A stretch of 64,000 nucleotides of DNA, from NCBI GenBank assembly GCA_026391125.1, contig JAPLEO010000145.1, positions 1-64,000 of the forward strand, in the 5' to 3' direction. Both the position numbers and the translations under genes were made by a program. Source of the stretch: Bacteroidota bacterium (lineage in GTDB: Bacteria; Bacteroidota; Bacteroidia; Chitinophagales; Chitinophagaceae). Every line of letters starts with the position of its first letter. Position 1 is the first letter of the stretch. The notes under the pieces are model-generated. The model saw only the letters and a list, made by a program, of their open reading frames with translations, searched no databases and was not told the DNA's origin. Below are positions 1 through 5,011 of this stretch, piece by piece.

Positions 1-831
1 CATGATACTGAAAACAGTACCTAAGCTCTGTGCCCAATCAGGAAGTGCAGTATATAATAAGTGGTGTGGTCCAGCCCAGATATATAAGAAGATCAAAGCC
101 CAGAAGTGTATGATCGATAAACGATAACTATACACTGGTCTATTAGCAGCCTTAGGTAAGAAATAATACATAATACCTAAGTAAGGAGTAGTAAGGAAGA
201 ATGCCACCGCATTATGTCCATACCACCATTGTACCAACGCATCTTGTACCCCTGCATAAAAACTGTAACTCTTCAATAAGCTAAAAGGCAATTCAAAAGA
301 GTTTACAACGTGTAGCATGGTAACTGTGATCCAGGTTGCGATGTAAAACCAGATCGCAACATACAAATGACTTTCTCTGCGTTTAATGATGGTACCAAAC
401 ATATTAATACCAAAAACGATCCAAATCAATGCAATTAGAATATCGATTGGCCATTCTAATTCTGCGTATTCTTTTCCTGATGTGTAGCCTGACAATAAAG
501 TAACTGCGGCTAAAACGATGATTAATTGCCAGCCCCAGAAATGGATCTTACTGAGCGTGTCGTTAAACATACGCGCCTTACATAAACGCTGTAATGAATA
601 ATAAACACCCATGAACATTCCATTTCCAACAAAGGCAAAAATTACCGCATTGGTGTGAACAGGTCTTACCCTACCGAATGTGGTAAAGGATAGTCCGAAA
701 TTGGCAGCCGGCAGATAGATTTGCACAGCTATCAACAGACCGGCGAGCATGCCTACAACGCCCCATAACATGGTGGCAAAGGCAAATTGCTTTACAATCC
801 GGTTGTCATAATAGAACTTTTCTACTTGCAT
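1..831 (-). CDS. ccoN: cbb3-type cytochrome c oxidase subunit I (5' part, truncated by window edge)
   Basis: Minus-strand translation from ATG at 831 reads [31 protein letters not shown]...[30 protein letters not shown]..., typical of CcoN; not in ORF track because it runs off the edge. Confidence 0.9.
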
Positions 832-878: not shown

Positions 879-1061
879 TTAAAGGGATTCGACTTTTACT
901 TGTTCTTTACTCTCCTTGGCAGGAACTGAATCAAGTAACATCCGCATAGGCGGACTCATTTCGTCGTCATACTGACCAGTTTTAACGCTCCATAGAAACG
1001 CTCCTAAAAAAAGCGCGGCTACAGATATACTAGCCAGCAAAAGGATAATAATAACACTCAT
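879..1061 (-). CDS. ccoS: cbb3-type cytochrome oxidase assembly protein CcoS
   Basis: Short single-TM protein MSVIIILLLASISVAALFLGAFLWSVKTGQYDDEMSPPMRML; start moved to internal Met from the ORF-track start at 1121. Confidence 0.85.
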   Translation of the reverse strand: MSVIIILLLASISVAALFLGAFLWSVKTGQYDDEMSPPMRMLLDSVPAKESKEQVKVESL

Positions 1062-1114
1062 AGTGGGTGGTGTTGTAATATTGGTAAAAGTAACTGGGTA
1101 ATCATGACCATTCC

Positions 1115-1150
1115 ATGACAATACTCAACCAGTTTAATGATATTTGTCAT
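1115..1150 (-). promoter_or_regulatory. tandem FNR-like boxes upstream of ccoS/ccoN
   Basis: Minus strand ATGAC-AAAT-ATCAT, 8 nt, TTGAG-TATT-GTCAT; same arrangement at 4242..4277. Confidence 0.6.
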
Positions 1151-1191: not shown

Positions 1192-3606
1192 TTATTTAAG
1201 GTTCATTTTCCAGCTTAATAAATTACTTGCTCCAAAGCTAATCAGCAAAATTGTTAGGCTACTTGCAGGCATCAAAATGGCGGCTACCATCGGCGATAAA
1301 TTACCGCTTACTGCAAAAGATTCCCCAACAATATTGTACAAAATAGAAACAATAAAAGCGGTCCACACCAACACTTTATTGGCTTTACACATGAACAGGA
1401 ATTGATGAAATCTTGGTAGCATCGAAGCTTCAAGAATCACATCACTGGCTGGGGTGAATGTGGCTGTATTTTCGGTGATTGCAATTCCAACATCAGCTTG
1501 TTTTAATGCACCCGCATCATTTAGTCCATCTCCAACCATCATCACTCTTTTACCTGTAGCTTGGATTTTTTTAATGGCTTCTAATTTATCCTCTGGTTTT
1601 TGATGAAATAAAATAGGCGTGCCTTTTCCCAGCATTTCTTCTAAATATTCTTTCTCTCCTGCATTATCACCACTCAATATGGATATAGGATAGCCTAATT
1701 TTCTTAATTTTTTCATCAAAGCAGGGACCTGTTCTCTATAATGATTTCTGAAACCAAATCTTCCCAAGACAGTTCCATTCACAGAAACAAAAACGACCGA
1801 ATCCAAACTACTTCCTTGCTCCGTTTTTTGAACAAAAAAGGCTGATCCCAATTTCAATCGATCGCCTTTAACGGTTCCTTCAATTCCTTTACCGGGTAGC
1901 TCTTTAAAATCAGCCACACTAATATTTTGAATGCTGGTTTGTTTAGTCCATTCAGCAATAGCTTTACTCATTGGATGTGTGGAATGTGAAGCCAGTACAG
2001 CTATTTTTTCTTTGATCGATTCACTGATATCTGCACCATCATAATTTATGTCCTGATAACGTCCTGTTGTTAAAGTACCTGTTTTATCAAACACGATATA
2101 ATTGATATTGGCGATGTCTTCAATCGTTTGTGCGTTGCGCAAATAAAATTGATTCCTACCAAGCCTACGAAGGATATTCCCATTAGTAAAAGTGTTGCTC
2201 AATAATAAGGAACAAGGGCAGGCTACTATTAATACGGCTGTCACTACTTGACCAATTCTTGACGGATCATGTAACCACCAGTAAATTGCTGCAGCTGCTG
2301 CAATTGTAAATAAGATCCAAGTAAAATAGCGACTGAGTAAGTGCACAAAAGAACGTTCCTCATCGTTTCGGTCTCGTTGTAATTCAGATCTATTCCAGAG
2401 TTTGGTAAGATAACTTTGTGACACTTCTTTGATCACCAATAATTCTATATTACTACCAATTTGTTTGCCCCCCGCATATACAATTTCACCCATTTCTTTT
2501 TCAACTGGCACTGATTCTCCTGTTACAAAACTATAATCGATCATGGCCTTTCCTCTGGTTAAAATTCCATCTGCAGGAATCAACTCTTGGTGGTGTATTA
2601 AAAGGGTATCATCTAAAACAATATCAGGCAATGCAACTGCTTCGGTTTGTTCCTCTTTTATTCTAGTAACAGCAATAGGAAAATAGGCTGTATAGTCACG
2701 TTCAAAACTCAGTTGCTGATACGTCTTATCCTGTAATACCCTTCCTATAAGCATGAAAAATACGATACCAGCCATTGAATCAAAATAACCCGCACCTGTT
2801 CCACTCAACACTTCATACAAACTTCTTGTAAATGCTACTGCAACTGCTAAAACAATGGGTGCATCTATATTCAAAAATCCGTGCTTCAAACTTTTCCAAG
2901 CACTGATATAAAATTCAGAACTACTATAAAAGAAAACAGGTAAGCTCAGAATAATGTTCATGTATCTGAAAGTGCCCTGCAAAAACAATTCCTGAGAATC
3001 GATCCCTAAGTATTCAGGAAAACTAAACAACATGATATTGGCGAAACAAAAACCAGCCACTCCTAATTTGTAGATCTTCGACATGTTTAAACTAGGGCGC
3101 TGTTGCTTGAGGTCCTTAAAACTAATATAAGGTTCATACCCAATTGACGCCAACAATTCAGCTACTTGGCGCATCGATACTTTGCGATGATCAAATACGA
3201 TATCGGCTTCTTTTCTTTCAAAGTTCACCTTCGATCCAATCACGTTTTCATTTAATCGATGTAAATTCTCTAAAAGCCACAAACAGCTACTGCAGTGCAT
3301 TTGAGGCAAATAGAAATTCACATGCGTTTCGGTTTCGTTGGCAAAAATCAGTAATGCAGATTGAATTTTTTGATCGTCGAGAAAAGCAAATTTGTCTTCT
3401 CTTATTTTTATACGCTGATTAGTTCCAGGATTATCACTAATTGTGTAATAATCGCACATGCCGGTTTTATTTAAGATCTCAAAAACCATTTTACAACCAT
3501 CGCAACAAAAGTTTTTCTCGTGTGCAATAATAGTTTTCTCATCGCAGTCTTCGCCACAATGATAACATTGCACTTTCGATTTTTGCGATACAGCTATTTC
3601 TGGCAT
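1192..3606 (-). CDS. ccoI: heavy-metal translocating P1B-type ATPase, cbb3 oxidase assembly (CcoI-like)
   Basis: N-terminal CYHCGEDC...CCDGC metal-binding region, HMA motif MHCSSC, CPC motif (VACPCSLLL), DKTGTLT, GDGLNDAGAL; next to ccoS/ccoN. Confidence 0.9.
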   Translation of the reverse strand: MPEIAVSQKSKVQCYHCGEDCDEKTIIAHEKNFCCDGCKMVFEILNKTGMCDYYTISDNPGTNQRIKIREDKFAFLDDQKIQSALLIFANETETHVNFYLPQMHCSSCLWLLENLHRLNENVIGSKVNFERKEADIVFDHRKVSMRQVAELLASIGYEPYISFKDLKQQRPSLNMSKIYKLGVAGFCFANIMLFSFPEYLGIDSQELFLQGTFRYMNIILSLPVFFYSSSEFYISAWKSLKHGFLNIDAPIVLAVAVAFTRSLYEVLSGTGAGYFDSMAGIVFFMLIGRVLQDKTYQQLSFERDYTAYFPIAVTRIKEEQTEAVALPDIVLDDTLLIHHQELIPADGILTRGKAMIDYSFVTGESVPVEKEMGEIVYAGGKQIGSNIELLVIKEVSQSYLTKLWNRSELQRDRNDEERSFVHLLSRYFTWILFTIAAAAAIYWWLHDPSRIGQVVTAVLIVACPCSLLLSNTFTNGNILRRLGRNQFYLRNAQTIEDIANINYIVFDKTGTLTTGRYQDINYDGADISESIKEKIAVLASHSTHPMSKAIAEWTKQTSIQNISVADFKELPGKGIEGTVKGDRLKLGSAFFVQKTEQGSSLDSVVFVSVNGTVLGRFGFRNHYREQVPALMKKLRKLGYPISILSGDNAGEKEYLEEMLGKGTPILFHQKPEDKLEAIKKIQATGKRVMMVGDGLNDAGALKQADVGIAITENTATFTPASDVILEASMLPRFHQFLFMCKANKVLVWTAFIVSILYNIVGESFAVSGNLSPMVAAILMPASSLTILLISFGASNLLSWKMNLK

Positions 3607-3667: not shown

Positions 3668-4195
3668 TTAGTGGTGTGCTTTCACCGTCAGTTTCGGATA
3701 CAATAAACTACCCTCAACATGTATCCATTGATACACTTTACTTTCTAACTGAAACATTTCATTGACACATTCTTTCCAGTCTTTATGCCAGGTAGGTTGG
3801 ATATTATAATCCTGCAATAAATGTCTTAATTTCTGTAATAGATTGGTAATGACCTGCTGGCGTTGATGTATCGATTCGATTGCTGTAGGTTGCAAAAAAT
3901 GACTAGTTTCTTTTCCAGTTTTGATCTTAGAATTTTTCTTGATGGCTGGAAAAATGATGCCCGATTCTTTGAGAAAAAAATGCTTGATCTCATCATTCAA
4001 TTTCATAAAAATCAAATGAATTAATTCAGACAAGGGGATGGATATATCTTTTCCGTATTGGTTAGATAATAAGAAGCTTTCGATTTTACGGCAAGAATCT
4101 CCAATAGAAGGATGGTACTCCTTCAGTATTAGTGAACATAACCCTTCTGGGGTTAATAATTCTTGTGAAACCGTTTCGTTGTGATTAGTGAGCAT
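3668..4195 (-). CDS. hemerythrin-like domain protein (possible RIC/ScdA-type repair protein)
   Basis: Helical protein with spaced H/E residues (YHPSI, HLIFMKLNDEIKHFFLKESGIIFPAI, HVEGSLLYPKL) next to FNR-type regulator. Confidence 0.65.
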   Translation of the reverse strand: MLTNHNETVSQELLTPEGLCSLILKEYHPSIGDSCRKIESFLLSNQYGKDISIPLSELIHLIFMKLNDEIKHFFLKESGIIFPAIKKNSKIKTGKETSHFLQPTAIESIHQRQQVITNLLQKLRHLLQDYNIQPTWHKDWKECVNEMFQLESKVYQWIHVEGSLLYPKLTVKAHH

Positions 4196-4241
4196 CTACT
4201 TCTATTTACGTGCAAGATATTCACGTAGAGAAGTTTAGCAA

Positions 4242-4277
4242 ATGACAGTACTCAATAACATGCATGATTTTTGTCAT
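4242..4277 (-). promoter_or_regulatory. tandem FNR-like boxes upstream of hemerythrin-like gene
   Basis: Minus strand ATGAC-AAAA-ATCAT, 8 nt, TTGAG-TACT-GTCAT; 27/36 identical to 1115..1150. Confidence 0.6.
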
Positions 4278-4300: not shown

Positions 4301-5011
4301 TTAATCCTGTAGGTTAGCTGTTTTGATGAGTTCTTTCTGGCGTAGGATTTTGATCTTCTTACCATCTAATTCTACCATACCATCTTTCTTAAATTCAGAC
4401 AATAAACGAATGGTAGATTCAGTAGCAGTTCCAACTAAATTGGCAATTTCTTCGCGCGATAAACGAACACTTAATGTAATTCCATCAGCCTCATATCCAT
4501 AAGTTTCTTTAATGAATAATAAGGTTTCCGCAAGTCTTTCACGGATTGGTTTTTGTGCCAAGTGTGTTAATTTAACTTCCGCCTTATGTAATTCATCACT
4601 CAATAACTTCATCATTTCAAATGCAAGTCCAGTATCGTTTTTAAGCACACTGATAAAAAGTTCCTTAGGTATAAAACAAACCTGTGTATCCTCTAATGCA
4701 ATTGCACTTGCACTATATCTTTCACCACTTAATAATGCACGATAACCCATCACATCACCTCCACGCAATAATCGAATGATCTGCTCTTTTCCGTCATCTC
4801 CTAAATGTGATAATTTAACCTTCCCCTCATTAATACAATAAACACCAAACGGATAAGAACCTTCATTAAAAAGGGTCTGCCCTTTTTTATAAATGTTACA
4901 AATCTTTTGGTCGTTGATCTCCGAAATGAATTCTTGCTTGGCCTTACAAAATACCGATGCAAAGCGCTGAGCACAAGACTGACAAGTAGTAGGATCATGA
5001 AAGTGGGTCAT
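4301..5011 (-). CDS. Crp/Fnr family transcriptional regulator, probable FNR-type [4Fe-4S] sensor
   Basis: cNMP-binding fold plus HTH (SREEIANLVGTATESTIRLLSEF); N-terminal CQSCAQRFASVFC and internal Cys in DTQVCFIP. Confidence 0.88.
   Translation of the reverse strand: MTHFHDPTTCQSCAQRFASVFCKAKQEFISEINDQKICNIYKKGQTLFNEGSYPFGVYCINEGKVKLSHLGDDGKEQIIRLLRGGDVMGYRALLSGERYSASAIALEDTQVCFIPKELFISVLKNDTGLAFEMMKLLSDELHKAEVKLTHLAQKPIRERLAETLLFIKETYGYEADGITLSVRLSREEIANLVGTATESTIRLLSEFKKDGMVELDGKKIKILRQKELIKTANLQD

Follow-up and report, generated by a model that had tools for sequence, protein, structure and literature searches.

The window analysed here is a stretch of 64,000 nucleotides on contig C9 of a Chitinophagaceae draft genome (3,789,176 bases in 152 contigs). 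It carries a group of genes that are read on the minus strand in the order Crp/Fnr regulator, RIC/YtfE-like gene, ccoI-type ATPase, ccoS, and ccoN. The Crp/Fnr-family regulator (4301..5011), which is the proposed binder of the sites discussed below, was recognized by its Pfam domains cNMP_binding and HTH_Crp_2 and by the conservation of its cysteines. It is followed by the gene of a RIC/YtfE-like (hemerythrin-like) protein (3668..4195), by a ccoI/copA-type copper P-type ATPase gene (1192..3606) assigned by family searches, and by ccoS (879..1061), whose product matches PF03597 (FixS) and TIGR00847 above cut-off. The 5' part of ccoN (1..831), encoding the catalytic subunit of the cbb3 oxidase, runs off the window; its assignment relies on gene order and sequence, and a counterpart 77–98% identical to this ORF adjoins ccoS in relatives. 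For the hemerythrin-like protein, the Pfam search gave no match, the score against TIGR03652 (the RIC/ScdA/YtfE di-iron repair family) is below threshold (46.6 bits vs a cut-off of 204.7), and the PDB match to YtfE has an E value of 0.0037. The metal-ligand positions of this protein are seemingly kept only in part: the histidine of the last YtfE helix aligns with a tryptophan, and the di-iron site may be altered.

Two 36-bp blocks are found within this gene group. Copy 1, located between ccoI and ccoS (minus strand, 1115..1150), reads ATGACAAATATCATTAAACTGGTTGAGTATTGTCAT, and copy 2, located between the regulator and the RIC-like gene (minus strand, 4242..4277), reads ATGACAAAAATCATGCATGTTATTGAGTACTGTCAT. 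Given these locations, each copy heads one transcription unit, with ccoS as first and ccoN as second gene under copy 1, and the hemerythrin-like gene as first gene under copy 2. A preliminary description of the locus had presented the blocks as a tandem FNR-like operator occurring twice, and this observation is confirmed: both copies fit the pattern ATGACN4ATCATN8TTGAGN4GTCAT with 0 mismatches, the box centres within a block are 22 bp apart, and copy 1 lies 53 nt before the start of ccoS and copy 2 lies 46 nt before that of the hemerythrin-like ORF, as had been claimed. The layout recurs as described, but 28 of the 36 bases are identical between the copies rather than 27. In the ccoS promoter, the upstream box ATGACAAATATCAT occupies 1137..1150 and the downstream box TTGAGTATTGTCAT occupies 1115..1128; in the promoter of the hemerythrin-like gene, the corresponding positions are 4264..4277 (ATGACAAAAATCAT) and 4242..4255 (TTGAGTACTGTCAT), all four on the minus strand. 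For a 0-mismatch match the chance expectation is 0, and even with up to 3 mismatches allowed, no match turned up when the window was dinucleotide-shuffled 100 times. Pattern searches, from which all genome-wide statistics given here are taken, showed that, apart from the two blocks, nothing in the 3.79-Mb genome matches with fewer than 3 mismatches. At exactly 3 mismatches there is one additional match, located between hypA and a hydrogenase-type gene.

A feature overlooked in the preliminary description is the fixed distance between each block and a putative promoter element of the type used by Bacteroidota. According to a study on Flavobacterium psychrophilum, the sigma-A -7 element of this species is TAnnTTTG or TAnnTTGY at -12 to -5 (PMC9723704). 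Such an element is found exactly 22 nt past both blocks: TACTTTTA at 1085..1092 on the minus strand in the ccoS promoter, where it belongs to a match of the class II search (C9:1085-1127), and TATCTTGC at 4212..4219 on the minus strand before the hemerythrin-like gene. Applying the F. psychrophilum rule places the transcription start sites (TSS) at about 1080 and about 4207, and hence the centres of the downstream boxes at -41.5 and those of the upstream boxes at -63.5. With the TSS placed in this way, the fixed 22-nt distance would correspond to a class II promoter geometry, with an activator site near -41.5 and a second site at -63.5. This holds for both copies in the window and for 72 of 79 orthologous promoters, in which TA..TT lies exactly 22 nt past a TGA-N6-TCA box. 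Matches to TAnnTTTG at 5 or more of 6 positions occur in 37 promoters when the gap is 22, but never in more than 1 promoter for any of the other gaps between 10 and 35, and nearly all orthologs of the hemerythrin-like gene have a TAnCTTGC-type element at the same 22-nt distance. In E. coli, 19 of 23 directly FNR-activated promoters with known TSS harbor a site within -41.5 ± 4 (PMC3688515). A scan with the sigma-70 consensus yielded 16 promoters vs 17.7 in shuffles, this lack of excess being expected for Bacteroidota.

Conservation was examined by scanning 84,980 species genomes with the regulator protein, which retrieved 49 loci, mostly from Chitinophagaceae-type metagenome genomes. Cultivated organisms among them are Sediminibacterium goheungense, whose ortholog of the regulator is 85% identical, Chitinophaga costaii, and a Ferruginibacter sp. 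The order FNR-hem-ccoI-ccoS-ccoN is retained in nearly all sufficiently long loci above about 70% identity, and most of these carry the block 5' of both genes. The 36-bp block is thus conserved upstream of both ccoS and hemerythrin-like orthologs, in about 35 Chitinophagaceae-type relatives. In the 31 orthologous ccoS blocks, the upstream box has the consensus ATGAYnnnnRTCAT. Near-invariant positions are ATGAY and RTCAT in the upstream box, and TGAG and RTCAT in the downstream box; the 8 nt separating the boxes vary freely in letters and are constant in length. The flanks of the upstream box tend to prolong the palindrome, with AAAC on the 5' side and G and T as the commonest bases at the first two 3' positions, which recalls the likewise extended palindromes of the 22-bp sites of Crp-type proteins. 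The half-sites had been likened to the FNR consensus TTGAT-N4-ATCAA. The 5-4-5 plan of that comparison stands, but its outer bases do not: judged by the ortholog consensus ATGAYnnnnRTCAT, the blocks contain no canonical FNR box.

Both distances extend well beyond this locus. Among 41 relatives, 48 perfect ATGAYnnnnRTCAT boxes are followed by TAnnTTTG within 9–38 nt, and the gap is 22 nt in 17 of them (flat expectation 1.6). In the same 41 genomes, 22 of 31 box pairs lying 0–29 nt apart are separated by exactly 8 nt (flat expectation 1), which bears out the fixed tandem spacing noted earlier. A sample of 197 genomes across the class Bacteroidia shows the same preference, with gap 22 in 52 and gap 23 in 18 of the 150 matches listed. 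The P values of these peaks (1e-13, 5e-26, and 4e-38) are overstated, as they rest on independence and on a flat null; the shape of the peaks is unaffected. Since the peaks are genome-wide, the box-to-box and box-to-(-7) distances are general rules and not peculiarities of one locus.

The two boxes of a tandem differ in quality. Of 65 tandem promoters, 59 have an upstream box with the full score of 10/10, and this box can be called strong. The box at -41.5 is weak, and TTGAG stands in its upstream half in 55 of the 65. Promoters with a single box display the opposite arrangement. When a -7 element is required, 7 such solo promoters are found, and their box at -41.5 is perfect in 6 and scores 9/10 in the seventh. 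A perfect ATGAY half at -41.5 is accordingly present in 0/65 tandem vs 6/7 solo promoters (Fisher P = 4e-8, with related genomes treated as independent). One switch between the two arrangements can be followed in close relatives: compared with the ccoS promoter of L021 (L021:13690-13850), that of L015 (L015:13690-13827) has cleanly lost 22 bp, which brings the strong box from -63.5 to -41.5, the flanks being intact and the distance and phase to the -7 element being kept. Such swaps between tandem and solo promoters are what would be expected if the -41.5 box activates and the upstream site offsets its weakness. In the genome under study, a YceI gene and a cytochrome-c-like gene are each preceded by three successive boxes spaced at 22-bp steps (C123:9477-9534 and C107:18959-19016).

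The regulator encoded at 4301..5011 combines a cNMP-binding fold and a Crp-type HTH (PF00027, PF13545, and PF00325, all above cut-off). The gene had been described as FNR-type, and the product indeed retains an FNR-type set of cysteines, C10-x2-C13-x8-C22 plus C112, that is, three N-terminal ligands and one in the effector domain, with a third spacing of x8 vs x5 in E. coli FNR. All 50 sequences compared have C10, C13, and C112, which align with C20, C23, and C122 of E. coli FNR, and 46 of the 50 have C22. On these grounds the protein is probably an O2-sensing [4Fe-4S] FNR. Its score against PRK11161, the NCBIfam model of the proteobacterial Fnr subfamily, is 91.1 bits, far below the cut-off of 228, so it is better called FNR-like, by its cysteine set and context, than a member of that subfamily. 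The FNR ortholog of locus L042 (10001-10687) has a serine in place of C22, yet the operators are kept; its sensing chemistry may differ. Only two HTH_Crp_2 genes were found in the genome, the second one being C78:3496-4032 (locus L084). It encodes a Crp-like protein without the N-terminal cysteines, and an ORF for a multi-pass membrane protein lies on the same strand at the same locus.

The expectation that the pattern would recur near respiratory genes was borne out by many matches of the right geometry 5' of such genes. A relaxed tandem search returned 28 matches (many places being counted on both strands) vs 1 for a reversed-pattern control, and a class II single-box search returned 16 vs 3. 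The better sites precede a hydrogenase-type small subunit gene and the divergent hypA, genes for two EB_dh-type haem proteins, two YceI proteins, and a cytochrome-c-like protein, as well as genes for a CcmE-domain protein, pta, a flavoprotein with Fer4_20, a fasciclin lipoprotein, and several unknowns. Tandem boxes without a -7 element at gap 22 are found before ccoG/fixG. The predicted regulon is low-oxygen and respiratory in content, in a list in which some matches are surely due to chance and some tandems lack the -7 element at gap 22. The box-bearing EB_dh-type haem, YceI, and cytochrome-c-like genes are located at about 7.8, 15.2, and 19.0 kb on C107 and at 13.9 kb on C71; the three within about 12 kb on C107 make a probable respiratory cluster.

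As far as sequence comparison can tell, the earlier interpretation as a tandem FNR-like operator is supported, and neither the conservation of the block nor the distribution of genome matches contradicted it. We consider it likely that the block is the operator of class II Crp/Fnr-activated promoters, offering two dimer sites to the regulator encoded at 4301..5011, and that low oxygen switches on both units. The downstream site at -41.5 would take the place of a -33 element, with its dimer touching the sigma and alpha subunits of RNA polymerase. This site would be weak, owing to TTGAG as upstream half instead of ATGAY; TTGAG is a putative binding half. From its position 22 bp away, on the same face of the DNA, the upstream site, which is near-perfect, could assist binding of the downstream dimer and provide a further contact to alpha. 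Upon a drop in oxygen, the [4Fe-4S] FNR would dimerise and fill both sites, so that the ccoS-ccoN unit for the cbb3 oxidase and the hemerythrin-like gene/ccoI unit would be turned on together.

Several other explanations have to be weighed against this one. The same class II operator might be bound mainly, or also, by the other Crp-type protein of the genome (C78:3496-4032), in which case the signal would not be oxygen acting on an Fe-S cluster. The recognition helices are similar (VETVIRAI vs TESTIRLL), and fusions of a receiver to a Crp-type protein co-occur with the same operator in relatives. However, the two proteins are only 24% identical, the FNR gene adjoins the operators in nearly all operator-bearing loci, and in the 98% complete genome G019, in which the ccoS promoter has its box at gap 22, no Crp-type match other than an 80%-identical FNR is present; we regard this explanation as unlikely. 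A similarly low probability is given to the upstream palindrome being the sole site of the regulator, with TTGAG...RTCAT serving as a core promoter element or as the site of another factor. The constancy of TTGAG (see above) is unusual for a degenerate half-site, but the RTCAT half of the downstream box is nearly invariant, solo promoters have a perfect box at exactly the place of the downstream box, and relatives often have better boxes paired at gap 8. The TTG of TTGAG was also rejected as a -33 element, since, given the -7 element, it sits at about -48 to -46.

That the regulator represses these promoters, or activates them in one state and represses them in another, seems less likely still. 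FNR-type proteins can repress, and the upstream FNR site of E. coli yfiD (-93.5) down-regulates, according to work cited in PMC3688515. Against repression, -41.5 is the standard activating position (PMC3688515), and the cbb3 oxidase of F. psychrophilum is induced by oxygen limitation (PMC9723704). A chance similarity or a non-regulatory repeat or hairpin is scarcely credible: the whole 36-mer is loosely palindromic, but the shuffles yielded nothing comparable and the exact spacing is conserved across genomes. A hairpin or terminator was rejected because transcription, with the TSS as inferred, would begin only downstream of the block, so that RNA is not expected to contain it; the single terminator-like match is elsewhere.

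A different regulator accompanies the operator in part of the order. Several relatives lack a Cys-FNR, and what comes closest to it among their proteins is a fusion of about 355 aa with the architecture receiver-cNMP-HTH_Crp. The HTH of this fusion is nearly the same as that of the FNR (GTATESLIRTL vs GTATESTIRLL). The cco cluster of G006 has the fusion gene at its far end, and the ccoS promoter of this genome reads ATGACTAAAGTCAT-N8-TTGATGAGAGTCAT-22 nt-TAGATTTG. Tandems are also found before ccoI and ccoS in G009, before ccoS/ccoN in G033, and before a hydrogenase gene in G024. The fusion genes examined adjoin a PAS histidine kinase wherever the contig allows this to be seen. Loci L088, L102, and L103-L110 encode such fusions of about 355 aa beside PAS kinases, often ending the cco cluster, in genomes that have no Cys-FNR and keep the tandem operator; the kinase PAS of L102 is FixL-like. 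The PAS domain of the G034 kinase is FixL-like (E = 2e-31 to FixL structures), with a histidine in the region of the haem-ligand histidine and the IIGIGR motif kept. A FixL-type PAS as the general partner of receiver-Crp proteins was rejected, only 2 of 41 genomes having one at E <= 1e-20; the other partner kinases carry a PAS of a different type.

Gap-8 tandems or gap-22 promoters were found in 18 of 29 genomes with FNR or receiver-Crp vs 0 of 12 without (Fisher P = 3e-4; related genomes are treated as independent, and genomes without either regulator are often smaller or incomplete). This co-occurrence of regulator and architecture, together with the presence of the operator in FNR-less relatives, suggests that the sensing input has been exchanged over a conserved operator. 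We lean slightly towards the view that the tandem class II operator stayed at the cbb3 genes while the sensor was swapped, an Fe-S FNR in the lineage of the window vs a PAS kinase with a receiver-Crp fusion in related ones. In this view, the kinase would bear a FixL-type haem PAS in a few genomes, and the fusion would be a FixJ-like receiver merged with a FixK-like activator, encoded at the cco cluster in some genomes. Given that the same operator is found where Cys-FNR is missing, the operator alone cannot name its regulator.

Dual control as such is not new in kind: comparable genes of rhizobia are served by FnrN and by FixK, which is under FixL (PMC7888657). The rhizobial fixNOQP genes (FixL-(FxkR)-FixK and FnrN; PMC7888657) are likewise cbb3 genes under Crp/Fnr activators with Fe-S and FixL-type sensors. 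Rhizobia keep receiver and Crp protein apart, whereas the two are fused in the relatives described here, and FNR and kinase/receiver-Crp seem to replace each other in some species; the fusion and this replacement pattern are the unusual parts. The class II FNR promoters of E. coli (dmsA, narG, and nirB; PMC3688515) share with those predicted here a 5-4-5 box at -41.5, an Fe-S regulator, and respiratory targets. They differ in that the E. coli box is TTGAT-N4-ATCAA combined with a sigma-70 -10 element, with one site in 89% of peaks (PMC3688515), whereas the promoters here combine ATGAY half-sites with the Bacteroidota element TAnnTTTG and have a second site exactly 22 bp upstream. E. coli yfiD likewise has two sites for one FNR, at -40.5 and -93.5, with one at the class II position; its upstream site, about 53 bp further up, down-regulates, whereas the 22-bp spacing here would put adjacent dimers in an arrangement that is constant across genes and species. 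The sigma-A promoters of F. psychrophilum have the same -7 element, and a Crp/Fnr box at a fixed 22 nt is not described in the passages of that study consulted here (PMC9723704). No tandem FNR sites or FNR operator were found for Bacteroidota in the open-licence literature, which is weak evidence of absence. Tandem-site class II FNR promoters are known as a kind, and the anatomy proposed here consists of a strong box at -63.5, a weak box at -41.5, and the -7 element.

Bacteroidota are prominent among the aerobes and microaerobes of soil and fresh water, and their oxygen control is hardly described. The present analysis supplies a first predicted regulon together with the sequence of the operator and the geometry of the promoter, all of them open to testing in cultivated relatives, for instance Sediminibacterium. 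Naturally occurring swaps between a weak plus a strong box and a single strong box, including the 22-bp deletion, are ready comparisons for the effect of tandem sites on promoter output. Finally, a Crp/Fnr box 22 nt before TAnnTTTG recurs across the 197 sampled Bacteroidia genomes, and this rule could serve to predict regulons throughout the class.
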